A DNA stretch of 64,000 bases, from NCBI GenBank assembly GCA_001695595.3, contig MBPM02000174.1:1-64000 (forward strand), in the 5' to 3' direction. The translations under genes were made by a program, and so were the position numbers. The notes under the pieces were generated by a model. It did no database searches, was not told the DNA's origin, and worked only from the letters and a program-made list of their open reading frames with translations. The DNA is from Plasmopara viticola. Its lineage: Eukaryota; Oomycota; Peronosporomycetes; Peronosporales; Peronosporaceae. Positions 1-63,837 of this stretch are shown here, piece after piece (position 1 is the first letter of the stretch; the number at the start of each line of letters is the position of its first letter).

Positions 1-533
1 ATTGATTCTGGAAATTGAGCTTATAACCATACTTTACTTTCAAAAACACTATGACGGGTGATGCCGTTGTCTTACTCAGTGCCTGTACTTCGATCTCCTT
101 TTTCTTGATGAAAAATTAGATTCTTTTAAGTATAGGATTTTCAAGTCCACTGCGTTTAGACTCTCAATAACTCATACAAGTGCTGCGAGAAAAAGCTGTC
201 CAGAAAGACACACCTTTATCATCATACATCCACTTTTTGCTATCAGCTTCCTTTTTTGTGTCAGTAAGTCTTGAATGTCGGTCGGGACATGTCAAAAGTC
301 ATATCCTGTACTTAATTATACGGTCAGTATTCGTTGATTATGACCTTCGATATTTCATTTACTTAAATTGTTTTCACTACTAAACACCTATATAATCAGG
401 AGAAAGGAATCAGGGCAAAACAATAATTCTATCCCAACTGCAGTAACAACAACTCGTAAAAGCATAGATCAACAACTACGACAAAAGACCTTCGAATTGA
501 CAAACTTTATTCTTTAAAACGGAAACGACAGCA

Positions 534-869
534 TCAACAGCAGCGTGGTGTCATATCTAGTAGTAGATGAAATCCGAGCATCAAATAATTGAGTGAGGGT
601 ACGATATTGTAAGTCGGATACGTCGACCCAGATCTACCACCAGCCTCCACCCAGCCACCACCTAAGCCCCCGCCCCAGCCACCACCCCATCCGAGTCCAC
701 CCCAAGGCCCTCCCCAGCCCCAGAATTCCTTCTTATTACCTTCTGGACCCTTACCTGCAGCAGGTGCTGCCTCTGTAGGCATAGCTGCTGACCGCAGTGC
801 ATTTTGGTCAGCAGCGGCATAGTTTGCAACGGCAATTGCAGCAGCGACGGCGAAAGCAGTAAACTTCAT
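534..869 (-). pseudogene. Copy 1: GW-rich secreted protein gene with frameshifted tail
   Basis: The start codon at 869 and signal peptide match the intact copies. The tail has lost one 12-bp GGGW repeat plus one further base near 650-660, so the frame misses the normal stop (634-636) and runs into the former 3' untranslated region, giving 111 residues. The new C-terminus has a long non-GW stretch. A one-base deletion also lies just upstream of the start (GTCTATCG instead of GTCGTATCG). This edge copy is probably decaying, though a secreted variant product cannot be excluded. Confidence 0.8.
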
Positions 870-1751
870 GGTCTATCGAGGAGTAGACAACCAAGCAAAG
901 TTGTTTTCAAAGTCTCGAAGCAAGTTGCGTTGTGATGAATATGTATGCCGTGTCTCCTCTTCGAGCGGTAAATCCTGTCATTTTCTTGAATTTTTACCAG
1001 CATCCAAATCCATCGCGAATTTGATGGCACCTCAGTAGCTGAAAATTACACTTTCTTGTCATTTGTGATGTGTTTGTATCTGACGGATTCGTTCATTAAA
1101 GCCACTATGTAAAACCTATAATTTAATGATCAATGAGCAAAACAATGGAATTTTTGCGTCCTACCATATAAAGTTGCGGTCCTGACCAGTACTTATCCAT
1201 CTAAATATGATTGATTCTGGAAATTGAGCTTATAACCATACTTTACTTTCAAAAACACTATGACGGGTGATGCCGTTGTCTTACTCAGTGCCTGTACTTC
1301 GATCTCCTTTTTCTTGATGAAAAGTTAGATTCTTTTAAGTATAGGATTTTCAAGTCCAATGCGTTTAGACTCTCAATAACTCATACAAGTGCTGCGAGAA
1401 AAAGCTGTCCAGAAAGACACACCTTTATCATCATACATCCACTTTTTGCTATCAGCTTCCTTTTTTTGTCAGTAAGTCTTGAATGTCGGTCGGGACATGT
1501 CAAAAGTCATATCCTGTACTTAATTATACGGTCAGTATTCGTTGATATGACCTTCGATATTCATTCACTTAAATTGTTTTCACTACTAAACACCTATATA
1601 ATCAGGAGAAAGGAATCAGGGCAAAACAATAATTCTATCCCAACTGCAGTAACAACAAACTCGTAAAAGCATAGATCAACAACTACGACAAAAGACCTTC
1701 GAATTGACAAACTTTATTCTTTAAAACACCCAGCCTCCACCCCAGCCACAC

Positions 1752-1958
1752 CTAAGCCTCCGCCCCAGCCACCACCCCATCCGAGTCCACCCAAGGCCCT
1801 CCCCAGCCCCAGAATTCCTTCTTATTACCTTCTGGACCCTTACCTGCAGCAGGTGCTGCCTCTGTAGGCATAGCTGCTGACCGCAGTGCATTTTGGTCAG
1901 CAGCGGCATAGTTTGCAACGGCAATTGCAGCAGCGACGGCGAAAGCAGTAAACTTCAT
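1752..1958 (-). pseudogene. Copy 2: GW-rich gene lacking its 3' end
   Basis: The start at 1958 and signal peptide are intact. One C is missing in the CCGAGTCCACCC region near 1783-1790, shifting the frame after the GGPW motif so that it ends at 1752. A deletion has also joined the poly(A)-signal region (about 1727) directly to the middle of the Gly/Trp tail, removing the normal stop codon and most of the 3' untranslated region. The distance between starts of copies 1 and 2 is 1089 bp instead of about 1220, which matches this loss. Confidence 0.85.
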
Positions 1959-2925: not shown

Positions 2926-3174
2926 CTACCACCAGCCTCCACCCCAGCCTCCACCCCAGCCACCACCTAAGCCTCCGCCCCAGCCACCACCCCATCCGAG
3001 TCCACCCCAAGGCCCTCCCCAGCCCCAGAATTCCTTCTTATTACCTTCTGGACCCTTACCTGCAGCAGGTGCTGCCTCTGTAGGCATAGCTGCTGACCGC
3101 AGTGCATTTTGGTCAGCAGCGGCATAGTTTGCAACGGCAATTGCAGCAGCGACGGCGAAAGCAGTAAACTTCAT
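2926..3174 (-). CDS. Copy 3: small secreted Gly/Trp-rich protein (reference copy)
   Basis: This 82-residue protein is the reference for the array. Residues 1-20 are a typical signal peptide (Lys2, then a hydrophobic Ala/Val/Ile core, ending Ala-Ala-Ala before Asp21). Residues 21-48 form a hydrophilic Ala/Pro/Glu/Lys linker. Residues 49-82 are almost only Gly and Trp, with nine Trp (50, 52, 56, 61, 65, 73, 77, 81, 82) and Leu at 59 and 69; from 61 to 81 a Trp or Leu occurs every fourth residue with Gly-Gly-Gly between. There is no Cys and no RXLR motif. I chose the start at 3174 because it opens the signal peptide and sits in a good ACCATGA context. The frame extends upstream by 54 codons, but that extension begins at GTG, would bury the signal peptide and is not conserved in all copies. 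Likely exported to the wall, matrix or host interface. The exact function is unknown; glycine-rich wall or adhesive proteins are the closest analogy. Confidence 0.85.
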   Translation of the reverse strand: MKFTAFAVAAAIAVANYAAADQNALRSAAMPTEAAPAAGKGPEGNKKEFWGWGGPWGGLGWGGGWGGGLGGGWGGGWGGGWW

Positions 3175-5365: not shown

Positions 5366-5614
5366 CTACCACCAGCCTCCACCCCAGCCTCCACCCCAGC
5401 CACCACCTAAGCCTCCGCCCCAGCCACCACCCCATCCGAGTCCACCCCAAGGCCCTCCCCAGCCCCAGAATTCCTTCTTATTACCTTCTGGACCCTTACC
5501 TGCAGCAGGTGCTGCCTCTGTAGGCATAGCTGCTGACCGCAGTGCATTTTGGTCAGCAGCGGCATAGTTTGCAACGGCAATTGCAGCAGCGACGGCGAAA
5601 GCAGTAAACTTCAT
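5366..5614 (-). CDS. Copy 5: GW-rich secreted protein
   Basis: Same 82 residues as the reference copy. The 3' region carries a variant (GACTAATTTTATT on the plus strand) that keeps AATAAA but changes its flank. The same variant appears near copy 25 and at copy 37 on the plus strand, suggesting exchange between blocks. Confidence 0.85.
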   Translation of the reverse strand: MKFTAFAVAAAIAVANYAAADQNALRSAAMPTEAAPAAGKGPEGNKKEFWGWGGPWGGLGWGGGWGGGLGGGWGGGWGGGWW

Positions 5615-6589: not shown

Positions 6590-6838
6590 CTACCACCAGC
6601 CTCCACCCCAGCCTCCACCCCAGCCACCACCTAAGCCTCCGCCCCAGCCACCACCCCATCCGAGTCCACCCCAAGGCCCTCCCCAGCCCCAGAATTCCTT
6701 CTTATTACCTTCTGGACCCTTACCTGCAGCAGGTGCTGCCTCTGTAGGCATAGCTGCTGACCGCAGTGCATTTTGGTCAGCAGCGGCATAGTTTGCAACG
6801 GCAATTGCAGCAGCGACGGCGAAAGCAGTAAACTTCAT
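6590..6838 (-). CDS. Copy 6: GW-rich secreted protein
   Basis: Same 82 residues as the reference. Spacing to copy 5 is 1224 bp. The candidate core promoter and AATAAA are both kept, so this is a typical full unit. Confidence 0.85.
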   Translation of the reverse strand: MKFTAFAVAAAIAVANYAAADQNALRSAAMPTEAAPAAGKGPEGNKKEFWGWGGPWGGLGWGGGWGGGLGGGWGGGWGGGWW

Positions 6839-7803: not shown

Positions 7804-8052
7804 CTACCACCAGCCTCCACCCCAGCCTCCACCCCAGCCACCACCTAAGCCTCCGCCCCAGCCACCACCCCATCCGAGTCCACCCCAAGGCCCTCCCCAG
7901 CCCCAGAATTCCTTCTTATTACCTTCTGGACCCTTACCTGCAGCAGGTGCTGCCTCTGTAGGCATAGCTGCTGACCGCAGTGCATTTTGGTCAGCAGCGG
8001 CATAGTCTGCAACGGCAATTGCAGCAGCGACGGCGAAAGCAGTAAACTTCAT
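7804..8052 (-). CDS. Copy 7: GW-rich secreted protein, N16D
   Basis: One replacement against the reference: Asn16 to Asp in the last part of the signal peptide, also found in copies 22, 31, 33 and 34. The AATAAA hexamer is lost (the plus strand reads AACTTAATTTTTAAAA near 7674-7688), so 3'-end formation may use another signal. Confidence 0.85.
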   Translation of the reverse strand: MKFTAFAVAAAIAVADYAAADQNALRSAAMPTEAAPAAGKGPEGNKKEFWGWGGPWGGLGWGGGWGGGLGGGWGGGWGGGWW

Positions 8053-9025: not shown

Positions 9026-9274
9026 CTACCACCAGCCTCCACCCCAGCCTCCACCCCAGCCACCACCTAAGCCTCCGCCCCAGCCACCACCCCATCCGAG
9101 TCCACCCCAAGGCCCTCCCCAGCCCCAGAATTCCTTCTTATTACCTTCTGGACCCTTACCTGCAGCAGGTGCTGCCTCTGTAGGCATAGCTGCTGACCGC
9201 AGTGCATTTTGGTCAGCAGCGGCATAGTTTGCAACGGCAATTGCAGCAGCGACGGCGAAAGCAGTAAACTTCAT
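9026..9274 (-). CDS. Copy 8: GW-rich secreted protein
   Basis: Same 82 residues as the reference. The downstream poly(A) hexamer is destroyed by a small deletion that leaves a run of eight T (plus strand, about 8900-8907). The upstream spacer is typical. Confidence 0.85.
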   Translation of the reverse strand: MKFTAFAVAAAIAVANYAAADQNALRSAAMPTEAAPAAGKGPEGNKKEFWGWGGPWGGLGWGGGWGGGLGGGWGGGWGGGWW

Positions 9275-10247: not shown

Positions 10248-10496
10248 CTACCACCAGCCTCCACCCCAGCCTCCACCCCAGCCACCACCTAAGCCTCCGC
10301 CCCAGCCACCACCCCATCCGAGTCCACCCCAAGGCCCTCCCCAGCCCCAGAATTCCTTCTTATTACCTTCTGGACCCTTACCTGCAGCAGGTGCTGCCTC
10401 TGTAGGCATAGCTGCTGACCGCAGTGCATTTTGGTCAGCAGCGGCATAGTTTGCAACGGCAATTGCAGCAGCGACGGCGAAAGCAGTAAACTTCAT
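10248..10496 (-). CDS. Copy 9: GW-rich secreted protein
   Basis: Same 82 residues as the reference. The 3' region has a longer A-run before AATAAA, which is kept. Upstream, the spacer reads ACGTTCATTAAGCC with a one-base deletion compared with neighbours. Confidence 0.85.
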   Translation of the reverse strand: MKFTAFAVAAAIAVANYAAADQNALRSAAMPTEAAPAAGKGPEGNKKEFWGWGGPWGGLGWGGGWGGGLGGGWGGGWGGGWW

Positions 10497-11466: not shown

Positions 11467-11715
11467 CTACCACCAGCCTCCACCCCAGCCTCCACCCCAG
11501 CCACCACCTAAGCCTCCGCCCCAGCCACCACCCCATCCGAGTCCACCCCAAGGCCCTCCCCAGCCCCAGAATTCCTTCTTATTGCCTTCTGGACCCTTAC
11601 CTGCAGCAGGTGCTGCCTCTGTAGGCATAGCTGCTGACCGCAGTGCATTTTGGTCAGCAGCGGCATAGTTTGCAACGGCAATTGCAGCAGCGACGGCGAA
11701 AGCAGTAAACTTCAT
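11467..11715 (-). CDS. Copy 10: GW-rich secreted protein
   Basis: Same 82 residues as the reference, with one silent change in the Gly-Asn-Lys region (plus strand TTATTGCC instead of TTATTACC near 11580). AATAAA is kept in a shortened context. Confidence 0.85.
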   Translation of the reverse strand: MKFTAFAVAAAIAVANYAAADQNALRSAAMPTEAAPAAGKGPEGNKKEFWGWGGPWGGLGWGGGWGGGLGGGWGGGWGGGWW

Positions 11716-12687
11716 GGTCGTATCGAGGAGTAGACAACCAAGCAAAGTTGATTTCAAAGTCTCGAAGCAAGTTGCGTTGTGATGAATATGTATGCCGTGT
11801 CTCCTCTTCGAGCGGTAAATCCTGTCATTTTCTTGAATTTTTACCAGCATCCAAATCCATCGCGAATTTGATGGCACCTCAGTAGCTGAAAATTACACTT
11901 TCTTGTCATTTGTGATGTGTTTGTATCTGACGGATTTCGTTCATTAACGCCACTATGTAAAACCTAAATTTAATGATCAATGAGCAAAACAATGATATTT
12001 TTGCGTCCTACCATATAAAGTTGCGGTCCTGACCAGTACTATCCATCTAAATATGATTGATTCTGGAAATTGAGCTTATAACCATACTTTACTTTCAAAA
12101 ACACTATGACGGGTGATGCCGTTGTCTTACTCAGTGCCTGTACTTCGATCTCCTTTTTCTTGATGAAAAGTTAGATTCTTTTGAGTATAGGATTCTCAAG
12201 TCCACTGCGTTTAGACTCTCAATAACTCATACAAGTGCTGCGAGAAAAAGCTGTCCAGAAAGACACACCTTTATCATCATACATCCACTTTTTGCTATCA
12301 GCTTCCTTTTTTGTGTCAGTAAGTCTTGAATGTCGGTCGGGACATGTCAAAAGTCATATCCTGTACTTAATTATACGGTCAGTATTCGTTGATATGACCT
12401 TCGATATTCATTTACTTAAATTGTTTTCACCACTAAACACCTATATAATCAGGAGAAAGGAATCAGGGCAAAACAATAATTCTATCCCAACTGCAGTAAC
12501 AACAAACTCGTAAAATGCATAGATCAACAACTACGACAAAAGACCTTCGAATTGACAAACTTTATTCTTCAAAACGGAAACGACAGCATCACAGCAGCGT
12601 GGTGTCATATCTAGTAGTAGATGAATTCCGAGCATCAAATAATTGAGTGAGGGTACGATATTGTAAGTCGGATACGTCGACCCAGAT

Positions 12688-12936
12688 CTACCACCAGCCT
12701 CCACCCCAGCCTCCACCCCAGCCACCACCTAAGCCTCCGCCCCAGCCACCACCCCATCCGAGTCCACCCCAAGGCCCTCCCCAGCCCCAGAATTCCTTCT
12801 TATTACCTTCTGGACCCTTACCTGCAGCAGGTGCTGCCTCTGTAGGCATAGCTGCTGACCGCAGTGCATTTTGGTCAGCAGCGGCATAGTTTGCAACGGC
12901 AATTGCAGCAGCGACGGCGAAAGCAGTAAACTTCAT
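12688..12936 (-). CDS. Copy 11: GW-rich secreted protein
   Basis: Same 82 residues as the reference. The 3' region has a C in place of T just before the poly(A) signal, which itself is kept. The spacer on the upstream side reads GTTGCAATCCTGATCAG, a minor variant. Confidence 0.85.
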   Translation of the reverse strand: MKFTAFAVAAAIAVANYAAADQNALRSAAMPTEAAPAAGKGPEGNKKEFWGWGGPWGGLGWGGGWGGGLGGGWGGGWGGGWW

Positions 12937-13909: not shown

Positions 13910-14158
13910 CTACCACCAGCCTCCACCCCAGCCTCCACCCCAGCCACCACCTAAGCCTCCGCCCCAGCCACCACCCCATCCGAGTCCACCCCAAGGCCCT
14001 CCCCAGCCCCAGAATTCCTTCTTATTACCTTCTGGACCCTTACCTGCAGCAGGTGCTGCCTCTGTAGGCATAGCTGCTGACCGCAGTGCATTTTGGTCAG
14101 CAGCGGCATAGTTTGCAACGGCAATTGCAGCAGCGACGGCGAAAGCAGTAAACTTCAT
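13910..14158 (-). CDS. Copy 12: GW-rich secreted protein, promoter-side deletion
   Basis: Same 82 residues as the reference. Upstream, a 25-bp deletion at about 14440 removes the TATA-like stretch while keeping GCTCATT. If the candidate promoter is real, this copy should be weakly expressed or start elsewhere, which makes it a natural test of the promoter assignment. Confidence 0.85.
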   Translation of the reverse strand: MKFTAFAVAAAIAVANYAAADQNALRSAAMPTEAAPAAGKGPEGNKKEFWGWGGPWGGLGWGGGWGGGLGGGWGGGWGGGWW

Positions 14159-15109: not shown

Positions 15110-15358
15110 CTACCACCAGCCTCCACCCCAGCCTCCACCCCAGCCACCACCTAAGCCTCCGCCCCAGCCACCACCCCATCCGAGTCCACCCCAAGGCCCT
15201 CCCCAGCCCCAGAATTCCTTCTTATTACCTTCTGGACCCTTACCTGCAGCAGGTGCTGCCTCTGTAGGCATAGCTGCTGACCGCAGTGCATTTTGGTCAG
15301 CAGCGGCATAGTTTGCAACGGCAATTGCAGCAGCGACGGCGAAAGCAGTAAACTTCAT
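15110..15358 (-). CDS. Copy 13: GW-rich secreted protein
   Basis: Same 82 residues as the reference. It starts only 1200 bp from copy 12 because of the 25-bp deletion in the spacer between them. It shares with copy 12 a G-to-C change just past the stop (plus strand GTCGCATACG), marking the two as sister units. Confidence 0.85.
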   Translation of the reverse strand: MKFTAFAVAAAIAVANYAAADQNALRSAAMPTEAAPAAGKGPEGNKKEFWGWGGPWGGLGWGGGWGGGLGGGWGGGWGGGWW

Positions 15359-16334: not shown

Positions 16335-16583
16335 CTACCACCAGCCTCCACCCCAGCCTCCACCCCAGCCACCACCTAAGCCTCCGCCCCAGCCACCACC
16401 CCATCCGAGTCCACCCCAAGGCCCTCCCCAGCCCCAGAATTCCTTCTTATTACCTTCTGGACCCTTACCTGCAGCAGGTGCTGCCTCTGTAGGCATAGCT
16501 GCTGACCGCAGTGCATTTTGGTCAGCAGCGGCATAGTTTGCAACGGCAATTGCAGCAGCGACGGCGAAAGCAGTAAACTTCAT
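16335..16583 (-). CDS. Copy 14: GW-rich secreted protein, cut off from its promoter by Copia-1
   Basis: The CDS is intact and encodes the reference 82 residues. Copia-1 is inserted in the leader: the TAGAC target site (16599-16603) lies 16-20 bp upstream of the ATG. The natural upstream region now resumes at 21297. The remaining leader is followed directly by the 5' LTR in opposite orientation, so any transcript would have to start in the LTR antisense direction. The CDS may therefore be silent although unmutated. Confidence 0.8.
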   Translation of the reverse strand: MKFTAFAVAAAIAVANYAAADQNALRSAAMPTEAAPAAGKGPEGNKKEFWGWGGPWGGLGWGGGWGGGLGGGWGGGWGGGWW

Positions 16584-16603
16584 GGTCGTATCGAGGAGTA
16601 GAC

Positions 16604-16783
16604 TGTAACGGCCTCTAATTGGGTGTCCCACAGTATGTGCCAACTTGACATATAAGAGAAATAGTCACATTCTAGAATATCGAGACAGAAGAACACGTGG
16701 CTACAAGTGAGTAAGAGCCGATAGTTTGCTTTATTCCTATGAATTTACTTTCCATTTTGCACTGCGACAATCACATTGTTATA
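16604..16783 (+). repeat. 5' LTR of Copia-1
   Basis: 180 bp, starting TGTAACGG and ending ATTGTTATA, so only the 5' end has the usual TG and the 3' end is not CA. The boundary is fixed by the matching 3' copy and the target duplication. Confidence 0.95.
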
Positions 16784-16795
16784 GGTTATGAGCCC
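16784..16795 (+). promoter_or_regulatory. Primer binding site overlapping the gag start codon
   Basis: GGTTATGAGCCC directly follows the 5' LTR. It is complementary to the anticodon arm of eukaryotic initiator tRNA-Met (GGGCUCAUAACC), the half-tRNA priming known from Drosophila copia. The ATG inside this site (16788-16790) is the gag start codon, so primer binding and translation initiation use the same bases. Confidence 0.7.
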
Positions 16796-17219
16796 AATAA
16801 CGAACCCGAACGAGATCCTCAGCGACGACAACTACTTCCTGTGGGAATTTAACGCCCGCATGGCATTGGCCAGGAAGGACCTCCTCGATCATCTCGAGGT
16901 GAAGCCAGAAGACGCAGTGAACGCCCCCACGCAATGGAAAGCCGCCGATGTGAAGGCGCTGGCTGTGGTGTCGAAGCTGTTGAGTCCAACGTACCAGATG
17001 ATGGTGAGAGAAGCCAATTCTGCATGGGAAGCATGGCAAATTCTGCGTGCATTTTTCATGAAGCAGAGTCTGCACAACCGTGTGCAGCTGCGCAAGCAAC
17101 TCCACGAGTTCGCGATGGCCAGTGGTGGGAGTCTCATGGAGCATCTGGTGCAGTTCGATGAATTGTGTGCGAAGTTGGCTGCGGTTGGTGACGCTCTGCC
17201 TGAAGAGAGAAGCTGGTGA
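16788..17219 (+). pseudogene. gag: Copia-1 gag, N-terminal part (frameshifted)
   Basis: 143 codons with the copia Gag (UBN2-type) pattern: LSDDNYFLWEFNARMALARK near the start, matching the same region of the minus-strand elements, then ALAVVSKLL, AWQILRAFF and LHNRVQLRKQLHEF blocks. The frame stops at 17217-17219 because an extra AG dinucleotide lies in GAGAGAAG at about 17204-17211; the Gag sequence continues in another frame (LLGSVPSEYD). The start is the ATG in the primer binding site. Gag forms the cytoplasmic virus-like particle. Confidence 0.8.
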
Positions 17220-17896
17220 TCCTCCTTGGTAGTGTGCCAAGTGAGTACGACGCGATGGTGCGGCTCATCGAAGTGCGCGACCGTGTGACACTTCTGGATG
17301 CGAAAGAGATGCTCCGACGCGAATATGAGATGATTCAGAAACGCGAGGTGAAGGAGCAAGCATTCAAGGCGACGGTGAGTGATAATGGTGGAAGGTTCCA
17401 GAATGGGCGTGGAGGCCGACGTGGACGAAATGCCAAGAGACACGGACGCAAAGGGCATAATGGTGGTGACAAGAAGGAGTTCAAGGGCCGATGCTATGAA
17501 TGCCACGAAGCTGGCCACAAGAAACAAGATTGCCCGAGGCTGAAGGGCAATGCCGGTGGTTCGGAGTTCGCGTTCTCCGCTATGACCGCTGGTGGTGAGC
17601 GATCGTCCACCTGGCTCCTTGATAGTGGAGCCAGCTCGCATATGACTACGGATCGGAATGATTTTTCGGAATACCGCCCGCTTACAGAACCAATCGAGAT
17701 CATGGTGGCAAATGGCCAGCGAGTTGCCGCCATAGGTATGGGTACCGTGCGAGTTAACTTTACCGGAGGCGTGCGGGTGAAGTTGACGGATGTTCTCCAC
17801 GTTCAGAAATTGGACCGAAAGCTACTGTCGGTTCCTGCACTCATGTCCAAGAATCTCGCTGTGCAGTTCGACAAGACCGGTGCCTCCATTCGCTGA
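17216..17896 (+). pseudogene. gag-pol: Copia-1 gag C-terminus, zinc knuckle and protease
   Basis: 226 codons in the frame after the first break. A CCHC zinc knuckle (CX2CX4HX4C) begins at residue 93, preceded by an Arg/Gly/Lys-rich nucleic-acid-binding stretch. The aspartic protease site is Asp-Ser-Gly with Asp at residue 136. The frame ends at 17896, where a shift breaks into the gag-pre-integrase region; the HARLGH zinc-binding motif and the later GCAQGKM motif lie downstream in different frames. The apparent initiator is internal, so this is a continuation and not a separate gene. Confidence 0.8.
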
Positions 17897-18212
17897 ATGG
17901 CCGTGTTATTGTTCGAGTCCCTCGGATTGGGAAACTGTACGCGTGTGAACTAAAGTACAGAACGGAAGGCAACGCGTATACGGCATTGATGGTGAGTCAA
18001 GTGATAAAGCCTACGAAGTCATTCACGCGCGCCTGGGGCACGTCTCCGATACCAAGCTAAAGCTAATTGCTCGCGTGCGATGGTGTCCCCCCTATGGCTT
18101 TGTTTCAATCGGATGGTGGTGTTGCGTGGCTGTGCGCAAGGAAAAATGACCACGAAGCTCGTACGCGCACCAATCGGGTAGCGAGATAAAGACAGGTCGC
18201 CCATTCGAGATT

Positions 18213-21131: not shown

Positions 21132-21296
21132 TTGGGTGTCCCACAGTATGTGCCAACTTGACATATAAGAGAAATAGTCACATTCTAGAATATCGAGACA
21201 GAAGAACACGTGGCTACAAGTGAGTAAGAGCCGATAGTTTGCTTTATTCCTATGAATTTACTTTCCATTTTGCACTGCGACAATCACATTGTTATA
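21117..21296 (+). repeat. 3' LTR of Copia-1
   Basis: Identical to the 5' LTR over 180 bp and followed by TAGAC, the second copy of the target duplication. Confidence 0.95.
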
Positions 21297-34660: not shown

Positions 34661-34673
34661 CTCCCACTCACCG

Positions 34674-38730: not shown

Positions 38731-38772
38731 ATTGGGCGAGAACGTTGCTTGAGCTTGTTGCGGCTGTTAACC

Positions 38773-41727: not shown

Positions 41728-41734
41728 CTCCCAC

Positions 41735-44162: not shown

Positions 44163-44249
44163 TCGTTCTGCAATTCCATTTTGTTGGGGACTGTATGGTA
44201 CTGTACGCTGATGTATGATACCGTTCCGCTGACATAAATCCGTAACTGT

Positions 44250-45823: not shown

Positions 45824-45871
45824 GGCGGTGACGTTGTGGTGATGCGAGGCTGTTGTTTGCGGCTGTTAAGT

Positions 45872-46017
45872 TGTTGAGAAGGAAGTAGAAACCGAAGTGA
45901 ATATATTTATCCTGACCAATGAACGGCTACCATATGTAATTATTAATTGTGACGTACTTGTAATTACTGTGAAGCCATCCACCTGTTCAACATGCATTCA
46001 GCGGTGTAATGTTAACA
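45872..46017 (-). repeat. 5' LTR of Copia-3
   Basis: 146 bp, TG...CA ends kept (TGTTGAG on the left, GTTAACA on the right); about ten differences from the partner. Confidence 0.88.
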
Positions 46018-46780: not shown

Positions 46781-47029
46781 CTACCACCAGCCTCCACCCC
46801 AGCCTCCACCCCAGCCACCACCTAAGCCTCCGCCCCAGCCACCACCCCATCCGGGTCCACCCCAAGGCCCTCCCCAGCCCCAGAATTCCTTCTTATTACC
46901 TTCTGGACCCTTACCTGCAGCAGGTGCTGCCTCTGTAGGTATAGCTGCTGACCGCAGTGCATTTTGGTCAGCAGCGGCAAAGTTTGCAACAGCAATTGCA
47001 GCAACGACGGCGAAAGCAGTAAACTTCAT
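46781..47029 (-). CDS. Copy 27: GW-rich secreted protein, diverged
   Basis: 82 residues with A9V, Y17F, M30I and L59P against the reference. L59P puts a proline inside the Gly/Trp tail. The leader end reads GTCTTATCG (Lys-type codon before the ATG), shared with copies 28-30 and 32. The upstream spacer is type A (GGAAATTACAC, GTTTGGATCTGACGGAGTACG). Confidence 0.83.
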   Translation of the reverse strand: MKFTAFAVVAAIAVANFAAADQNALRSAAIPTEAAPAAGKGPEGNKKEFWGWGGPWGGPGWGGGWGGGLGGGWGGGWGGGWW

Positions 47030-48014: not shown

Positions 48015-48263
48015 CTACCACCAGCCTCCACCCCAGCCTCCACCCCAGCCACCACCTAAGCCTCCGCCCCAGCCACCACCCCATCCGAGTCCACCCCAAG
48101 GCCCTCCCCAGCCCCAGAATTCCTTCTTATTACCTTCTGGACCCTTACCTGCAGCAGGTGCTGCCTCTGTAGGCATAGCTGCTGACCGCAGTGCATTTTG
48201 GCCAGCAGCGGCAAAGTTTGCAACAGCAATTGCAGCAACGACGGCGAAAGCAGTAAACTTCAT
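48015..48263 (-). CDS. Copy 28: GW-rich secreted protein, diverged
   Basis: 82 residues with A9V, Y17F and D21G; the last change sits at the predicted signal peptidase site and replaces the first mature residue. The upstream spacer is type B: TTGACATTTGTG, then CCATTAACGGGG joined to TGATGCCGTTG (about 48500), a deletion that removes the candidate promoter. Confidence 0.83.
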   Translation of the reverse strand: MKFTAFAVVAAIAVANFAAAGQNALRSAAMPTEAAPAAGKGPEGNKKEFWGWGGPWGGLGWGGGWGGGLGGGWGGGWGGGWW

Positions 48264-49076: not shown

Positions 49077-49325
49077 CTACCACCAGCCTCCACCCCAGCC
49101 TCCACCCCAGCCATCACCTATGCCTCCGCCCCAGCCACCACCCCATCCGAGTCCACCCCAAGGCCCTCCCCAGCCCCAGAATTCCTTCTTATTACCTTCT
49201 GGACCCTTACCTGCAGCAGGTGCTGCCTCTGTAGGCATAGCTGCTGACCGCAGTGCATTTTGGTCAGAAGCGGCAAAGTTTGCAACAGCTATTGCAGCAG
49301 CGACGGCGAAAGCAGTAAACTTCAT
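49077..49325 (-). CDS. Copy 29: GW-rich secreted protein, diverged
   Basis: 82 residues with Y17F, A20S, L69I and G71D. A20S changes the residue before the cleavage site. The leader has a small deletion just upstream (GAGTACAAACAAG), which breaks the long upstream reading frame seen in other copies and so argues against its use as coding sequence. The upstream spacer is of the common type with GCTCATT present. Confidence 0.83.
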   Translation of the reverse strand: MKFTAFAVAAAIAVANFAASDQNALRSAAMPTEAAPAAGKGPEGNKKEFWGWGGPWGGLGWGGGWGGGIGDGWGGGWGGGWW

Positions 49326-50300: not shown

Positions 50301-50549
50301 CTACCACCAGCCTCCACCCCAGCCTCCACCCCAGCCACCACCTATGCCTCCGCCCCAGCCACCACCCCATCCGAGTCCACCCCAAGGCCCTCCCCAGCCC
50401 CAGAATTCCTTCTTATTACCTTCTGGACCCTTACCTGCAGCAGGTGCTGCCTCTGTAGGCATAGCTGCTGACCGCAGTGCATTTTGGTCAGCAGCGGCAA
50501 AGTTTGCAACAGCAATTGCAGCAGCGACGGCGAAAGCAGTAAACTTCAT
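50301..50549 (-). CDS. Copy 30: GW-rich secreted protein, diverged
   Basis: 82 residues with Y17F and L69I. L69I is shared with copy 29. The upstream spacer is type A, as in copies 27 and 32. Confidence 0.83.
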   Translation of the reverse strand: MKFTAFAVAAAIAVANFAAADQNALRSAAMPTEAAPAAGKGPEGNKKEFWGWGGPWGGLGWGGGWGGGIGGGWGGGWGGGWW

Positions 50550-51533: not shown

Positions 51534-51782
51534 CTACCACCAGCCTCCACCCCAGCCTCCACCCCAGCCACCACCTAAGCCTCCGCCCCAGCCACCACCC
51601 CATCCGAGTCCACCCCAAGGCCCTCCCCAGCCCCAGAATTCCTTCTTATTACCTTCTGGACCCTTACCTGCAGCAGGTGCTGCCTCTGTAGGCATAGCTG
51701 CTGACCGCAGTGCATTTTGGTCAGCAGCGGCATAGTCTGCAACGGCAATTGCAGCAGCGACGGCGAAAGCAGTAAACTTCAT
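51534..51782 (-). CDS. Copy 31: GW-rich secreted protein, N16D
   Basis: Only N16D against the reference, so its CDS groups with the homogenised copies while its spacer is type B (same deletion junction as copy 28, about 51980). The leader lacks about 30 bp (GTAGACAAGTTACG). This mosaic pattern suggests gene conversion of the CDS. Confidence 0.83.
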   Translation of the reverse strand: MKFTAFAVAAAIAVADYAAADQNALRSAAMPTEAAPAAGKGPEGNKKEFWGWGGPWGGLGWGGGWGGGLGGGWGGGWGGGWW

Positions 51783-52564: not shown

Positions 52565-52813
52565 CTACCACCAGCCTCCACCCCAGCCTCCACCCCAGCC
52601 ACCACCTAAGCCTCCGCCCCAGCCACCACCCCATCCGAGTCCACCCCAAGGCCCTCCCCAGCCCCAAAATTCCTTCTTATTACCTTCTGGACCCTTACCT
52701 GCAGCAGGTGCTGCCTCTGTAGGCATAGCTGCTGACCGCAGTGCATTTTGGTCAGCAGCGGCAAAGTTTGCAACAGCAATTGCAGCAGCGACGGCGAAAG
52801 CAGTAAACTTCAT
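52565..52813 (-). CDS. Copy 32: GW-rich secreted protein, last minus-strand copy
   Basis: 82 residues with Y17F only. The upstream spacer is type A, with an expanded A-run near 53200. It is the left partner of a head-to-head pair: copy 33 starts 844 bp away on the other strand. Confidence 0.83.
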   Translation of the reverse strand: MKFTAFAVAAAIAVANFAAADQNALRSAAMPTEAAPAAGKGPEGNKKEFWGWGGPWGGLGWGGGWGGGLGGGWGGGWGGGWW

Positions 52814-53432: not shown

Positions 53433-53602
53433 CGAGTGGGCGCGCGAGCGGCTGAAACACCACATTTTAACTTCGTTCTGTATTGAGGACGAAGCGCAAG
53501 GACTGTGTATTAAGGCCACATCCTTTGTACAATGTGAGGGCGAAGCTAAGGTAAGTATGGTGGTTCAGGTCGAGAAGGCAGAGCTGAAAAAATGCCTCGT
53601 TG
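53433..53602 (+). other. Exon-like foreign fragment at the head-to-head inversion
   Basis: 170 bp unrelated to the array unit, open on the plus strand in the frame that starts at 53437 (EWARERLKHHILT, then FCIEDEAQGLCIKATSFV and AKVSMVVQVEKAELKKC). The residue pattern, codon use and GC content look like real coding sequence, and the frame continues without a stop into the leader of copy 33. I cannot name the parent protein. It also contains AAG-GTAAGTATG, a good splice donor match. It is most likely a piece of a host gene captured when the inversion formed. Confidence 0.55.
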
Positions 53603-53656
53603 TGCTTCGAGACTTTGAAATCAACTTTGCTTGGTTGTCTACTCCTCGATACGACC

Positions 53657-53905
53657 ATGAAGTTTACTGCTTTCGCCGTCGCTGCTGCAATTGCCGTTGC
53701 AGACTATGCCGCTGCTGACCAAAATGCACTGCGGTCAGCAGCTATGCCTACAGAGGCAGCACCTGCTGCAGGTAAGGGTCCAGAAGGCAATAAGAAGGAA
53801 TTCTGGGGCTGGGGAGGGCCTTGGGGTGGACTCGGATGGGGTGGTGGCTGGGGCGGAGGCTTAGGTGGTGGCTGGGGTCGAGGCTGGGGTGGAGGCTGGT
53901 GGTAG
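53657..53905 (+). CDS. Copy 33: GW-rich secreted protein, first plus-strand copy
   Basis: 82 residues with N16D and G75R, the latter adding a charge to the Gly/Trp tail. Only 54 bp of native leader remain; everything further upstream is the foreign fragment and the divergent unit of copy 32. Expression would need a start within those 54 bp or a borrowed promoter. Confidence 0.83.
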   Translation: MKFTAFAVAAAIAVADYAAADQNALRSAAMPTEAAPAAGKGPEGNKKEFWGWGGPWGGLGWGGGWGGGLGGGWGRGWGGGWW

Positions 53906-54882: not shown

Positions 54883-55131
54883 ATGAAGTTTACTGCTTTC
54901 GCCGTCGCTGCTGCAATTGCCGTTGCAGACTATGCCGCTGCTGACCAAAATGCACTGCGGTCAGCAGCTATGCCTACAGAGGCAGCACCTGCTGCAGGTA
55001 AGGGTCCAGAAGGTAATAAGAAGGAATTCTGGGGCTGGGGAGGGCCTTGGGGTGGACTCGGATGGGGTGGTGGCTGGGACGGAGGCTTAGGTGGTGGCTG
55101 GGGTGGAGGCTGGGGTGGAGGCTGGTGGTAG
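54883..55131 (+). CDS. Copy 34: GW-rich secreted protein
   Basis: 82 residues with N16D and G66D (an acidic residue in the first GGGW repeat after Trp65). The candidate promoter, leader and AATAAA are present in normal order. Confidence 0.83.
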   Translation: MKFTAFAVAAAIAVADYAAADQNALRSAAMPTEAAPAAGKGPEGNKKEFWGWGGPWGGLGWGGGWDGGLGGGWGGGWGGGWW

Positions 55132-56106: not shown

Positions 56107-56355
56107 ATGAAGTTTACTGCTTTCGCCGTCGCTGCTGCAATTGCCGTTGCAAACTATGCCGCTGCTGACCAAAATGCACTGCGGTCAGCAGCTATGCCTA
56201 CAGAGGCAGCACCTGCTGCAGGTAAGGGTCCGGAAGGTAACAAGAAGGAATTCTGGGGCAGGGGAGGACCTTGGGGTGGACTCGGATGGGGTGGTGGCTG
56301 GGGCGGAGGCTTAGGTGGTGGCTGGGGTGGAGGCTGGGGTGGAGGCTGGTGGTAG
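56107..56355 (+). CDS. Copy 35: GW-rich secreted protein, W52R
   Basis: 82 residues with W52R, replacing one of the nine Trp. The leader has one base less, so the long upstream frame is broken here. The 3' region has a deletion (CCGTTTTTGTCGTAG near 56468-56482) that removes the AATAAA signal. Confidence 0.83.
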   Translation: MKFTAFAVAAAIAVANYAAADQNALRSAAMPTEAAPAAGKGPEGNKKEFWGRGGPWGGLGWGGGWGGGLGGGWGGGWGGGWW

Positions 56356-57299: not shown

Positions 57300-57548
57300 A
57301 TGAAGTTTACTGCTTTCGCCGTCGCTGCTGCAATTGCCGTTGCAAACTATGCCGCTGCTGACCAAAATGCACTGCGGTCAGCAGCTATGCCTACAGAGGC
57401 AGCACCTGCTGCAGGTAAGGGTCCAGAAGGCAATAAGAAGGAATTCTGGGGCTGGGGAGGGCCTTGGGATGGACTCGGATGGGGTGGTGGCTGGGGCGGA
57501 GGCTTAGGTGGTGGCTGGGGTGGAGGCTGGGGTGGAGGCTGGTGGTAG
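57300..57548 (+). CDS. Copy 36: GW-rich secreted protein, G57D
   Basis: 82 residues with G57D after Trp56. AATAAA is present. The spacer downstream has small deletions (GGGATAGAAGTTTTGCCC near 57748). Confidence 0.83.
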   Translation: MKFTAFAVAAAIAVANYAAADQNALRSAAMPTEAAPAAGKGPEGNKKEFWGWGGPWDGLGWGGGWGGGLGGGWGGGWGGGWW

Positions 57549-58248: not shown

Positions 58249-58394
58249 TGTTGAGAAGAAAGTAAAAACCGAAGTGATTATATTTATCCTGACCAATGAA
58301 CGGCTACCATATGTAATTACTAATTGTGACGTACTTGTAATTACTGTGAAGCCATCCACCTGTTCAACATGCATTCAGCGGTGTAATGTTAACA
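58249..58394 (-). repeat. 3' LTR of Copia-4
   Basis: 146 bp with TG...CA ends, bordered inside by the purine-rich GGTGAGTGGGAG tract. GTGATTATATTTATCC distinguishes both Copia-4 LTRs from those of Copia-2. Confidence 0.92.
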
Positions 58395-58407
58395 CTCCCA
58401 CTCACCG

Positions 58408-60822
58408 CTAATGCTGTGTGTCCTTTGTTGCTGACTTGGTCTTGATTCCGGTGGCTTCGCGCAGATACTTAAGCATCTTGGTCCCAACTGCCTTCGTCAG
58501 CATATCTGCAAGCTGACTCTTCGTGTCGATATATTCGATCTTCAACAGTCCTTCTTGAACGTTCTCACGAATAAAGTGGTGCTTGATGTCCACATGCTTC
58601 GTCCTAGCATGGTATCCGGCGTTATTGGCTAACGCAATCGCACCCTGGTTGTCTTCCCAAACCTGTGTGCCTTCAACTTGCTCGTGACCCATGTCCTTTA
58701 GCATTGCCCGCGTCCAAAGAACTTCTTGTGTGCATAAGCTAAGAGCCATATACTCAGCTTCCGCTGAGCTCAGCGCAACTGTCCGCTGGTACTTCGACTT
58801 GAATATTACTGGTGCGCTTGCAATCATGACCATAATTCCCGAGACCGAGCGTCTGTCATCCGTGTTGCTGCCCCAATCTGCATCCTTGATCGTAACGCTT
58901 CTAGTTCCTCGGTAGACGATACCGATTTGACGCGTGGTCTTCAGATACCGTACTACTCGAATTGCTGCGCTCCAATGTTGTAGTCCTGGGTTCTCCAGAA
59001 AACGTGATAGCTGCGTCACCACGTAAGCAATATCAGGCCGAGTGCATGTCGTTATGTACAGCAAGCATCCAATCAAAGAGCGATAAGGCTTTGATCGCAT
59101 TGTCGACCGTCCCTCTTCCGTTGTGGGTGACTGCTTTGACGACAGCTTCAATCCTGATACGCAAGGGTTTTCAACACTTTTGGCATCTTGTTGACCGAAT
59201 CGCTTGACCACGTCATCGATGTAGCGAGTCTGTTTGATCATCAAAATTCCAGCTGACCTGTCGTGATCAATTTCCATACCCAAAATAAATTCCGCCTGAC
59301 CAAGCTCCTTCATCTTGAAAGCATTCTTGAGTACTCCCTTTACTTGATTTAATTCTTTGCTGCTTCTTGCTGCGATAATCATGTCGTCCACATATAGTCC
59401 AACGTAAGCAAAACCTTCTTTAGTTCTCTTGACATAAACACATTGATCTGCTCCGCAACTCTTAAAGCCATTCCTGATGAAGACACGATGTATTGTCGTG
59501 TTCCAGGCACTCCCTGCTTGCTTAAGTCCGTAAATAGCCTTGTTTAGTTGACATATGTTTCCTTGAGCATTGTCGACACCAAGCGGAACTTCCATAAAAA
59601 TGTTGTCCGTCAACACGCTATTAAGAAAAGCCGTGTCGACGTCCAGCTGTTCCATTTGATAGCCACATTCAACACATACCGCGAGAATTATTCGGATCGA
59701 ATTCATGTTGGCAACCGGGGAATATGTCTCGAAAAAATCAACGCCATACTTCTGCTTGAAACCTTTCGCGACTAGTCGTGCCTTGTATCGCACGATAGCG
59801 CCATTCTGATCACGCTTTTTGGCAAATACCCATCGTGATCCAATTGTGCGTCCAGTCTCCCCTCGTGGCTGCAATGTCCACGTTTTATTCTCTTCGTGAG
59901 AACGAAGCTCAGCATCCATTGCTTCACGCCATTTCATTGCATCGTCGCTTGCCATTGCTTGAGTATAAGTAGTCGGTGAGTCCAAATCATCGTCAATATT
60001 CACAGCGTAGGCAAGAAAGGCTTCCGCAATTAGTCCATCTTCGTCAATCCTAGCACGCTTTGGAGTCGGTGGGCCCTCACTTCCTTCTGTTGACTCTCCA
60101 CCATCGGAACCGTTTCTTAGCATTAGCACTGGCTCACGTCTTACTCGTGTTCGCTCCAATTCAGGCCGAAACACCAAACGATCTTCTTGTTGCACTTGGG
60201 AAGGTTGATGATACTCCGTTAGCTCAAGCCCGTTTCGTACAGGGCTCTCAGAAGGCATTAGCCGCTGTACAACGGCGCTTGGCGTACGATTTACATCCTC
60301 CATATTGACATCCTCGACTGTCTCTTCGACAGCTCCCATGGGATCGTCCGGAACTGACTGTCGATCCACTTGATGCTGAACATTGACTTCATCACCATCC
60401 TTAACTACTTGAACAATTGTTTTCGGCTTAAGCTCTTGCGTGTCGTAGATGCCGCCCACCTCACGCTCATCCAACTTTACAGAGCGGGTCACTTTAATCT
60501 TAGCATTTTCCAAGTCAAACACGCGATAGCCCTTGACATTCTCTGCATAGCCAAGAAACATACACTTGAAACTCTTGGGTTCCAGTTTGGTCCGTTTCAC
60601 ATCGTCAATATGAGCGTAGCCTTGCGAACCAAATACGCGCAGGTGATCCATTCGAGGCTTCATTTTGAAAACTAGCTCATACGGCGTGGTGTCAGGATGG
60701 ACCGTATTGCTGGAGCGATTAATTAAATAAACCGCTGTATTTACCGCTTCCGCCCACCATTCCGTCGATACGCTCTTGTAGTGTAACATGCTGCGGGCTT
60801 TCTCCATAATTGTCCTGTTCAT
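58408..60822 (-). pseudogene. pol: Copia-4 pol: integrase C-terminus, RT and RNase H
   Basis: 804 codons open to the natural stop. It begins at MNRTIMEKARSM just after the integrase Glu, so the first Met is internal. It then has WWAEAVNTAVYLINRSSNT, the acidic linker, WVFAKKRDQNGAIVRYKARL, LDVDTAFLNSVLTDN, YGLKQAGSAWN and the catalytic YVDD at 477-480. RNase H follows with DADWGSNTDDRRS, SSAEAEYMAL and WEDNQGAIALAN, then SQLADMLTKAVGTKM. A short in-frame deletion shortens the stretch just before DADWG compared with Copia-3. RT and RNase H motifs all look functional. Confidence 0.87.
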
Positions 60823-61010
60823 ACGCTCCGCTACTCCGTTCTGCTGCGGGCTGTATGGGACGGAGCGCTGGTGTCATATTCCTGCCATTTTCTTGTTTAC
60901 GAACTCGGTTCCGTTGTCGGATCGCAAACATCTTAGTCGTGCACCCCACTGGTTTTCGTATAATGTCAGAAACTCCTTGAACTTGCCAGCAACTTCACTC
61001 TTGCTCTTGA

Positions 61011-62474
61011 TCAGAAAAATTGCAACATATCGTGAAAGTCATCCACAAACGTGAGAATGTATTTGGCACCACCCTTCGAGATAGTTCGCATTGGCCCCAT
61101 GACATCTGTGTGAACACGCTCCAACACACGTGTCGTCTTTGTCATTGAACGAGACGGAAACACCGTGATCGTCTGCTTGCCCTTCAAACACCCGGCACAC
61201 AATTTTTCCACACTTTGCTTGATAATTGGGATACCATTAGTCAATCGCTGTGTCCTGATCAGCGCATCCTTGATGGGGTGCCCCATGCGTGCATGCCAAA
61301 GCTCCCACTGATTGTCAGCCCCGGTACATTCAACGAGACATGCTTCTTCTTGCTCACAGTCAAGAAAATACGACTTTCCAACTTTTGTGCCCGACGCAAT
61401 TGCTTGCTTCTTGTTCCAAATGACACATGACGAACGCGAGAATTCCACACTCATGCCACGCTCTGCCAACTTGCCAACTGACAGCAACCTTCTGTCGAGT
61501 CCGGGAATGTGCAGAACTTCAACCATGCGAATCCTCATTCCGTTCAAACCAGTCAATTTTACCGTGCCGGCTCCTTTGACAAACAACTTCTTCCCGTCTG
61601 CAATCGTAACTTCGATGCTAGCTTCTAGGCCCTTGTAATCAAACAAGTCCTTCCTGTGTGGGGTCATGTGGGAAGTTGCTCCACTGTCAATCAGCCATCC
61701 TGATGACTTCCCTTCACCAACAGCAAACACCGTGTCGTCGCTGTTGAATCTTTTACCGGCCGGGCAGTTCCGCTTTATGTGTCCAAACTGGTCACAGTTG
61801 AAGCACTTGCCCTTGAATCCGCCGTTTTTGCGTGGAGGACCACCCTTTCGTCCATTGTCCCGTCCACCTTTTAATCTTCTAGCATTTCCATTTCCATTTA
61901 CGCGAAACGCTTTCTCTGTAGCTTCTTTCCTCTGCAGCTTCTCCGACTCTTTGAGCAGCTTCTCCTTGACTTCTATCAACGAAATGTCCCTTGCATTTTC
62001 AACAATCGACGAAATCAAGTCGTACTCCGAAGGTAGACTGCTGAGAAGTACCACCAGCTGGCGTGATTCATCAATTTGCTCTCCCGTAGTCTGTAGTCCC
62101 ACTACTAGCTCGTCAAAAGAGTCCAGATGCTCTGCCATGCTTGTTCCACTTTCCATCTTGAACTCATGTAGACGATGAGTCATCACAACACGATTGTGAA
62201 GAGTCGAGCGATTGTAGAAATCGCGGAGGGTTCCCCACGCCTCCATAGCACGCGTAGCCGACCGAATCTTGGTCTGGTGCTGGATCTCAACGCCTTGAGC
62301 AATGATGCCTAGCGCCTTGGCATCATTAACCAGCCACGCCTCCGTGACGTCCTTCTCTTCCTTGACGCCCATGATGTGTCCCAGGAGACCCTTCCGCGCC
62401 AGGGTCATCCTCATGTTAAACTCCCAGTGGTAATAGTTACCACTTCCTAGGAGGACTTCGGTGCGCTTGTTCAT
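61011..62474 (-). pseudogene. gag-pol: Copia-4 gag, protease and integrase N-terminus
   Basis: 487 codons from the gag ATG, 42 bp after the 5' LTR. Gag blocks as in Copia-2; CCHC zinc knuckle Cys224, Cys227, His232, Cys237; protease Asp-Ser-Gly with Asp263 intact; HARMGHP and CAGCLKGK; integrase HTDVMGPM. Loss of one A in an A-run at about 61035 shifts the frame after FVDDF. Between this point and the next frame (60823-61010) an 18-bp deletion at about 60874 shortens the integrase D-35-E spacing to D-29-E. Confidence 0.87.
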
Positions 62475-62516
62475 ATTGGGCGAGAACGTTGCTTGAGCTT
62501 GTTGCGGCTGTTAACC

Positions 62517-62662
62517 TGTTGAGAAGAAAGTAAAAACCGAAGTGATTATATTTATCCTGACCAATGAACGGCTACCATATGTAATTACTAATTGTGACGT
62601 ACTTGTAATTACTTTGAAGCCATCCACCTGTTCAACATGCATTCAGCGGTGTAATGTTAACA
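62517..62662 (-). repeat. 5' LTR of Copia-4
   Basis: 146 bp; one difference from the partner LTR (ATTACTTTGAAG against ATTACTGTGAAG). It is followed on the minus strand by GGTTAACAGCCGC, the place where a primer site should lie; it resembles the Copia-1 site only in part. Confidence 0.92.
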
Positions 62663-63837
62663 GTTTTGCTCATTGCTCATTAAATTATAGGTTTTACATA
62701 GTGGCGTTAATGAACGGAATCCGTCAGATACAAACACATCGCAAATGACAAGAAAGTGTAATTTTCAGCTACTGAGGTGCCATCAAATTCGCGATGGATT
62801 TGGATGCTGGTAAAAATTCAAGAAAATGACAGGATTTACCGCTCGAAGAGGAGACACCGCATACATATTCATCACAACGCAACTTGCTTCGAGACTTTGA
62901 AATCAACTTTGCTTGGTTGTCTACTCCTCGATAAGACCATGAAGTTTACTGCTTTCGCCGTCGCTGCTGCAATTGCCGTTGCAAACTATGCCGCTGCTGA
63001 CCAAAATGCACTGCGGTCAGCAGCTATGCCTACAGAGGCAGCACCTGCTGCAGGTAAGGGTCCAGAAGGCAATAAGAAGGAATTCTGGGGCTGGGGAGGG
63101 CCTTGGGGTAGACTCGGATGGGGTTGTGGCTGGGGCGGAGGCTTAGGTGGTGGCTGGGGTGGAGGCTGGGGTGGAGGCTGGTGGTAGATCTGGGTCGACG
63201 TATCCGACTTACAATATCGTACCCTCACTCAATTATTTGATGCTCGGATTTCATCTACTGCTAGATATGACACCACGCTGCTTCTGATGCTGTCGTTTCC
63301 GTTTTAAAGAATAAAATTAGTCAATTCGAAGGTCTTTTGTCGTAGTTGTTGATCTATGCTTTTTACGAGTCTGTTGTTACTGCAGTTGGGATAGAATTAT
63401 TGTTTTGCCCTGATTCCTTTCTCCTGATTGTATAGGTGTTTAGTAGTGAAAACAATTTAAGTAAATGAAATATCGAAGGTCATAACAGCGAATACTGACC
63501 GTAAAATTTAGTACAGGATATGACTTTTGACATGTCCCGACCGACATTCAAGACTTACTGACACAAAAAAGGAAGCTGATAGCAAAAAGTGGATGTATGA
63601 TGATAAAGGTGTGTCTTTCTGGACAGCTTTTTCTCACAGCACTTTAATGAGTTATTGAGAGTCTAAACGCAGTGGACTTGAGAATCCTATACTTAAAAGA
63701 ATCTAACTTTTCATCAAGAAAAAGGAGATCGAAGTACAGGCACTGAGTAAGACAACGCCATCACCCGTCATAGTGTTTTTGAAAGTAAAGTATGGTTATA
63801 AGCTCAATTTCCAGAATCAATCATATTTAGATGGATA
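62663..63837 (+). repeat. Tandem gene array, block C2 (copy 37)
   Basis: Continues block C1 after Copia-4. Copy 37 is followed by 3' region and spacer (63188-63837) with no gene, which ends abruptly at ATGGATAA where copia sequence begins. Confidence 0.93.
62939..63187 (+). CDS. Copy 37: GW-rich secreted protein with a cysteine
   Basis: 82 residues with G58R and G63C. This is the only copy with a Cys, placed in the Gly/Trp tail where it could form intermolecular disulfides. The leader ends ATAAGACCATG, like the diverged block B2 copies. Copia-4 lies about 275 bp upstream of the start, near the candidate initiator. AATAAA is present in a variant context (AATAAAATTAGTC). Confidence 0.83.
   Translation: MKFTAFAVAAAIAVANYAAADQNALRSAAMPTEAAPAAGKGPEGNKKEFWGWGGPWGRLGWGCGWGGGLGGGWGGGWGGGWW

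Follow-up and report, generated by a model that had tools for sequence, protein, structure and literature searches.

A tandem array of genes for a small, apparently secreted Gly/Trp-rich protein in the grapevine downy mildew Plasmopara viticola

Introduction

M96, a mating-specific gene family of Phytophthora, was reportedly described by Cvitanich et al. in 2006. In the account of PMC5999078, 49 M96 genes are annotated in Phytophthora infestans, nine of them with internal stops, and the genes form tandem-repeat clusters in most species, with species-specific groups that were read as later expansion or concerted evolution. The genes are induced more than 100-fold by mating, and their glycine-rich, matrix-like products carry signal peptides and have a median mature length of 271 residues, with a His-rich N-terminal third followed by a Gly/Ser/Tyr-rich part (PMC5999078). 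Here, we describe a tandem array of one small Gly/Trp-rich protein gene in Plasmopara viticola, which was found in a 64-kb stretch of DNA (bases 1-64000 of contig MBPM02000174.1, hereafter C174; this whole stretch is called the window). The M96 family is the closest known kind, showing the same logic of arrangement with an unlike protein.

Like the M96 proteins, the window protein is glycine-rich, and its genes form tandem clusters (37 copies in the window and 62 in a second array on contig C8) whose copies are closer within than between clusters, as judged from DNA compared within one genome. In contrast to M96, the mature protein has only 62 residues, is built of Gly and Trp without His or Tyr, and is encoded by about three times as many copies as the 49 M96 genes. 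The preliminary description of this DNA had named ipiB as the precedent, which is not the closest one. The IPIB proteins (PF10290) of the related oomycete Phytophthora infestans are secreted, contain glycine-rich repeats, and are thought to act in adhesion (PMC3091767), whereas the protein studied here has no PF10290 match. The loricrin-like protein PiLLP of Phytophthora infestans is also glycine-rich, and its silencing blocks oospore wall formation; however, it is described as a protein of 308 residues without a signal peptide and with one homolog per oomycete genome (PMC5298957), whereas the present family is multi-copy and encodes 82 residues with a signal-like start. Hundreds of copies of one unit in a single tandem array are known from a tRNA gene array of Phytophthora infestans (271 copies of a 513-nt unit, PMC9584435), although those are tRNA genes and not protein genes.

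No description of this family or array was found in searches of the open-licence literature for the array, the family, the species, and the precedent, and the words "tandem" and "glycine" are absent from the main text of the genome paper (PMC6660063). The array is real and unusually large, with an arrangement already known from M96 and a different protein. Our favored explanation, to which we assign a probability of roughly 0.55, is that the array provides a bulk supply of a secreted, disordered Gly/Trp-rich wall, matrix, or adhesive protein through gene dosage and is homogenized by unequal exchange.

Organization of the array

Gene copies were located by BLASTN with one coding sequence as the query, and their frames were judged by translation from each ATG. 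The window contained 37 copies between 640 and 63187, including 32 on the minus strand (up to 52813) and five on the plus strand (from 53657). Full-length frames of 82 codons were identified in 34 of the 37 copies, and 21 of the 37 encode a single identical protein, which are the same numbers as in the preliminary description. Chance is excluded as the source of a 37-copy array. The copies start 1,031-1,234 bp apart (approximately 1.22 kb), except at four places holding copia-type retrotransposons, and are mostly 95-99% alike over the whole unit. The homology of the units stops at 63838, one base away from the end that had been proposed (63837). Three copies have broken frames (ATGs at 869, 1958, and 41046); the first two are close to the contig end and could also reflect errors of the assembly. 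The gene copies, all located by BLASTN and translation, are as follows.

640..869, minus strand, copy 1, frame broken near the C-terminus
1729..1958, minus strand, copy 2, frame broken
2926..3174, minus strand, copy 3, intact, 82 amino acids
4150..4398, minus strand, copy 4, intact
5366..5614, minus strand, copy 5, intact
6590..6838, minus strand, copy 6, intact
7804..8052, minus strand, copy 7, intact, N16D
9026..9274, minus strand, copy 8, intact
10248..10496, minus strand, copy 9, intact
11467..11715, minus strand, copy 10, intact, reference copy
12688..12936, minus strand, copy 11, intact
13910..14158, minus strand, copy 12, intact
15110..15358, minus strand, copy 13, intact
16335..16583, minus strand, copy 14, frame intact, promoter severed by a copia insertion
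22255..22503, minus strand, copy 15, intact
23470..23718, minus strand, copy 16, intact
24689..24937, minus strand, copy 17, intact
25901..26149, minus strand, copy 18, intact
27121..27369, minus strand, copy 19, intact
28338..28586, minus strand, copy 20, intact
29558..29806, minus strand, copy 21, intact
30774..31022, minus strand, copy 22, intact, N16D
31991..32239, minus strand, copy 23, intact
33213..33461, minus strand, copy 24, intact
39751..39999, minus strand, copy 25, intact
40836..41046, minus strand, copy 26, frame broken
46781..47029, minus strand, copy 27, intact variant
48015..48263, minus strand, copy 28, intact variant
49077..49325, minus strand, copy 29, intact variant
50301..50549, minus strand, copy 30, intact variant
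51534..51782, minus strand, copy 31, intact, N16D
52565..52813, minus strand, copy 32, intact variant
53657..53905, plus strand, copy 33, intact variant, retaining about 54 bp of upstream sequence of its own at the orientation switch
54883..55131, plus strand, copy 34, intact variant
56107..56355, plus strand, copy 35, intact variant
57300..57548, plus strand, copy 36, intact variant
62939..63187, plus strand, copy 37, intact variant

Judged by their anatomy, the units are protein-coding genes of the mRNA type. Scans of the window against Rfam and for tRNAs gave nothing, so that no known RNA gene explains the unit.

Genome-wide extent and a second array

The assembly searched comprised 92,937,831 bases in 358 contigs; the INRA-PV221 assembly of P. 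viticola is described with 92.94 Mb in 358 scaffolds, or 359 in the abstract (PMC6660063). The preliminary description had the array running to both edges of the window and expected the true copy number to be higher. The array indeed continues past both edges, with 45 copies on C174 (82,939 bp, BLASTN) and approximately 157 copies in the assembly, as counted with a 38-mer from the coding sequence at up to three mismatches (reversed control, 0). The first array also covers the initial 50 kb of C36 (761 kb) and the initial 22 kb of C56 (548 kb), and further copies lie throughout C326 (27 kb); hand counts among the best 150 of 187 candidates gave at least 30, at least 6, and at least 16 copies on these contigs, respectively. 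The first array is taken as the pieces on C174, C36, C56, and C326, which stop at contig ends. C326:22501-24500 (L032) matches C174 76701-78696 with 98.3% identity over 2 kb, and the last gene copies share the same layout, which suggests that C326 may be a second haplotype left in the assembly; counted in this way, the total would be approximately 140 copies.

A second, diverged array lies beyond the window and was therefore out of reach of the preliminary description, which had seen the array of the window. It occupies C8:1,192,059-1,317,321 in the interior of a 1.73-Mb contig and contains 62 copies with a period of approximately 1.4-1.5 kb, in blocks of both orientations. Frames of the form M...GWW were found in 46 of the 62 copies, one of them with a foreign N-terminus. 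The frame length is 66, 70, 74, 78, or 82 residues in 45 of these 46, that is, in steps of one GGGW unit, and 80 residues in the remaining one. All 34 intact window copies have 82 residues; elsewhere on C174, one frame has 78 residues and another has 86. The C8 copies include at least two sequence types; their proteins differ from the window proteins by approximately 15%, and their coding sequences are 80-89% identical to the window copies.

A mis-assembly that multiplied one or a few genes would fit the array pieces at contig ends (C36 and C56) or filling small contigs (C174 and C326), as well as the possible second haplotype. However, scattered variants distinguish the copies, the copia insertions are at different places, 62 copies are in the interior of a large contig, and the assembly is reported as a long-read assembly at 185x with removal of redundancy (PMC6660063). 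These results indicate that an artefact is extremely improbable.

Conservation between the subfamilies and variation within the array

A conserved block precedes the genes, as exemplified by the reference copy.

11716..11865, minus strand, conserved upstream block of one copy (promoter or leader, about -150 to -1), which includes the 18-mer ATTCATCACAACGCAACT

Exact matches to this 18-mer were found upstream of 30 of the 37 window copies, 27 of which have an intact frame, and 127 times in the genome, with no occurrence of the reversed control. In an alignment of one window unit with one C8 unit, identity was high in the gene, with 47-55 of every 60 columns matching, and in the adjoining 120 bp upstream (51/61 and 41/60). 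Other bins matched in 26-62% of columns and the spacers were nearly unalignable, with the exception of one 3' patch (42/60) containing AATAAA in both subfamilies. The ratio of nonsynonymous to synonymous divergence (dN/dS) between the subfamilies was 0.21 (NG86) or 0.31 (YN00) over the first 60 codons, with 15 synonymous and 13 nonsynonymous differences (binomial p = 0.001), 0.15 or 0.12 over residues 21-60, and 0.20 by NG86 over all 82 codons.

The consensus sequences of two oomycete core motifs, the initiator (Inr) and the flanking promoter region (FPR), gave no hit between -150 and -1 of the window unit, in which an FPR-like match lies at -179; the C8 unit has one Inr-like match at -35, which is not shared. 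In 29 of the 37 copies (within 2926-63187), the frame stays open for a further 45 codons before the start, giving open reading frames (ORFs) of 127 codons that overlap the promoter or leader block. We rejected this extension as coding sequence, given that 14 of the 17 relatives aligned begin at the MK... methionine or no more than two residues from it, and that small gaps between the subfamilies shift the frame of the extension; the other three relatives are predicted to be longer.

Within-array diversity was calculated from 34 of the 45 C174 units, after exclusion beforehand of 11 units with interrupted, short, or poorly aligned flanks. Pairwise diversity was 0.009 for the coding sequence and 0.010 immediately 3' of it, 0.016 for the upstream block and 0.018 for the 50 bp preceding that block, and ranged from 0.026 to 0.097 in the other spacer bins. 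In a Mantel test, units lying farther apart were more distant in sequence (rho 0.21, a value attained by 2 of 2000 permutations; rho 0.18, attained by 18 of 2000, for the 21 units before 34 kb), a weak trend consistent with local exchange.

A satellite-like repeat with an incidental open frame, selfish or structural (e.g., a source of small RNAs), would need no product. Such a repeat might be recognized in the tandem and inverted blocks, the four copia insertions in the window, the loss of the frame in three of 37 window copies and 16 of 62 C8 copies (M...GWW criterion), and the ratio of nonsynonymous to synonymous polymorphism (pN/pS) of 0.70 within the array. In addition, tandem and inverted repeats are reported to be strong sources of small RNAs in Phytophthora infestans, where four M96 genes give small RNAs (PMC3804510). 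Nevertheless, the upstream block, the coding sequence, and short 3' parts are alike between the subfamilies while the spacers are not, dN/dS between the subfamilies is 0.2-0.3, and the protein is kept in two other genera. We therefore consider a satellite-like repeat distinctly unlikely.

Protein features

The first 20 residues form a hydrophobic helix with an Ala-x-Ala site (AAA) before Asp21, as seen by eye and in a structure model. They look like a signal peptide, and the product is apparently secreted, which bears out the small secreted Gly/Trp-rich protein of the preliminary description as far as the sequence can indicate. The mature product of 62 residues contains 24 Gly, nine Trp, and one Ser, with no His and no Tyr, and has a computed charge of -0.2 at pH 7. 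The structure model is disordered past one N-terminal helix (mean predicted local distance difference test score, pLDDT, 55.8) and gave no fold worth a fold search. No Pfam family matched the window protein. Among 18 family members scanned at E<=5, six Pfam families were matched by any member, and neither PF10290 (IPIB) nor the Pfam RXLR family was among them; the Glycine rich protein family (PF07172), with 0 matches for the window protein, was matched by six of the 18 members (best 8e-5).

A small, apparently secreted, and Trp-rich product with a very high copy number could also be a secreted antimicrobial or competition peptide made in bulk. However, the mature product is nearly neutral instead of cationic and the window protein has no Pfam match, which makes this role very unlikely.

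Relatives and genomic neighbors

Two protein searches retrieved 43 and 86 relatives, and every match with a named organism was from an oomycete. A search of the 82-residue protein in oomycete proteomes had been proposed in the preliminary description; the named relatives are from Phytophthora (idaei, cactorum, citrophthora, oleae, fragariae, rubi, lilii, cinnamomi, and others) and Peronospora (effusa, belbahrii, destructor, and matthiolae). In Peronospora effusa, the locus tags of the relatives span KXD40_006815 to KXD40_006970 and belong to a single 2.78-Mb contig; in Phytophthora citrophthora, two relatives tagged 003941 and 003992 share one contig. These locus tags suggest that the relatives are apparently clustered in both species. 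Several relatives are located on contigs of 1.1-1.25 kb, approximately one unit, and may represent collapsed arrays.

Six positions were kept in at least 90% of the 88 aligned rows, namely Q22 (80/88), L25 (86/88), R26 (87/88), K47 (80/87), G51, and W56. An alternative is an apoplastic or haustorial effector that targets the host, with its bulk production and gene amplification serving infection. The product is short, apparently secreted, and, where organisms are named, oomycete-specific, which would fit such an effector. The nearly invariant LR at 25-26 and the UniRef name "RxLR effector protein" of four relatives (P0043, P0064, P0066, and P0079) also point in this direction, and an RXLR locus of P. 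viticola is likewise thought to evolve by repeated tandem duplication (PMC13048484). However, the residue at position 23 is N in the window protein and P in 78 of the 88 aligned rows, so that LR is kept without the first R and no RxLR motif is present, and the Pfam RXLR family was unmatched among the 18 members scanned at E<=5. Moreover, identical proteins from 21 of 37 copies and a subfamily dN/dS of 0.2-0.3 are opposite to the usual diversifying pattern of effectors. An effector role is therefore unlikely.

The chromosomal surroundings were compared by one neighbor gene per array, with the best 120 of 177 matches listed, and the contigs compared may be pieces of one chromosome. The RNase P gene adjoins the C56 array end; its counterpart in Peronospora effusa (KXD40_009255) is on a 2.37-Mb contig and not on the 2.78-Mb contig of the cluster, and in Phytophthora citrophthora, Peronospora belbahrii, and Phytophthora oleae the gene is also on contigs other than those of the family members. 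The same was found in Peronospora belbahrii and Phytophthora oleae for the phosphatidyltransferase gene adjoining the C8 array, which had no Peronospora effusa or Phytophthora citrophthora match among the best 120 of 177 matches. These comparisons of one neighbor per array lend no support to synteny. The best named match of the C8-array neighbor gene was from Plasmopara halstedii (82% over half of the joined query). At the length cut-offs used, the region of 50-63 kb on the C36 side showed only copia-like frames and one uncharacterized ORF, with no obvious flanking gene. Additionally, two kinase-like reading frames were seen by eye to the right of the C8 array (L024:8182-9603 and L025:345-1676), and a small Cys-rich ORF with a signal-like start (L033:7244-7537) adjoins the RNase P gene close to where the array ends on C56.

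Mobile elements and rearrangements

The array described previously was confirmed, with the addition of an orientation switch and four copia insertions that had been left unmentioned.

16601..21296 (also given as 16599-21301), plus strand, copia-type element 1 within the array, long terminal repeat (LTR) pair 99.5% identical
34515..38918, minus strand, copia-type element 2, LTR pair 97.9% identical
41582..46015, minus strand, copia-type element 3 with interrupted frames, LTR pair 93.8% identical
53433..53602, no strand assigned, 170-bp stretch at the head-to-head orientation switch
58249..62662, minus strand, copia-type element 4, LTR pair 99.3% identical

The first element is flanked by a TAGAC repeat, an apparent 5-bp target duplication read by eye, and sits approximately 20 bp before the start codon of copy 14 (ATG at 16583), cutting the intact frame off its promoter. 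Within C174 and the examined part of C8, the 170-bp stretch matched nothing else. Past the window end of the array, a related copia-type element is split into C174 63839-65558 and 73784-76738, which match adjoining parts of element 1 in opposite orientations, so that an inversion breakpoint seems to lie inside a copia-type element. The seven gene copies between these pieces point opposite to the neighboring copies. Beside element 2, part of a unit forms an inverted duplication (33533-34515, 95.5%), which could yield a hairpin RNA.

Proposed role of the array

Bulk supply through gene dosage would involve the following steps. As sequence and conservation show, most units of approximately 1.22 kb carry their own conserved upstream block and 82-codon frame. 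Removal of the putative signal peptide before Asp21 would export the 62-residue product, which may work in bulk outside the cell through its GGGW repeats. Unequal exchange or conversion would expand, shrink, and homogenize the copies, resulting in the observed pattern of two subfamilies approximately 15% apart whose own copies are much closer. Selection would preserve what the copies make together, along with the promoter, whereas any single copy would be dispensable, as supported by the constraint above. Based on composition and analogy, a wall or adhesive role is most likely, perhaps at a particular life stage of downy mildew.

Because promoter and coding sequence are constrained, dosage is the likely reason for the array, in line with the selection for very high dosage that the preliminary description had proposed, although several results weigh against it and keep it conditional. 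Among 36 intact 82-codon copies of C174, pN/pS was 0.70 (15 nonsynonymous and 7 synonymous variants), which is not significantly below 1 (p = 0.28); redundancy of the copies would leave single copies nearly free of constraint, as this value would fit. By YN00, dN/dS over all 82 codons was 0.41, and the trend of distance with separation is weak. The GC content at third codon positions (GC3) was 0.44 with mixed Gly codons, showing no obvious codon optimization as judged without a genome-wide yardstick. No match was named from Phytophthora infestans, Phytophthora sojae, Phytophthora ramorum, Bremia, or Plasmopara halstedii, and the role is thus not universal, unless annotation or 90% clustering hides relatives. 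With one neighbor per array, no chromosomal position shared with other species was found. Finally, the Gly/Trp composition alone would also fit an effector or another secreted peptide.

A more detailed form of the bulk-supply explanation is tentative and, taken as a whole, unlikely. The genes might constitute a family, absent from the papers searched, for extracellular glue or wall hardening, in which (GGGW)n chains follow a conserved N-terminal cassette with Gln22 and Lys47 as cross-link sites for secreted transglutaminase, arrays of more than 100 genes serve as a dosage dial sized by unequal exchange, and repeat length changes by 12-bp slippage. The guess of cross-linking comes from the conservation of both residues, from general knowledge, and from a secreted transglutaminase reported among the mating-induced wall genes of Phytophthora infestans (PMC5999078).

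Implications

Two diverged arrays in one genome provide material for studying the concerted evolution of protein genes, and the high-copy DNA of this array could serve as a detection marker. The conserved upstream element is present in 127 exact copies, and the life stage at which it is active would indicate where the protein is required. If expressed, the array would be among the larger protein-coding tandem arrays of oomycetes known to us, from general acquaintance and not from a survey, and would point to a major overlooked surface component of the grapevine downy mildew and its relatives.

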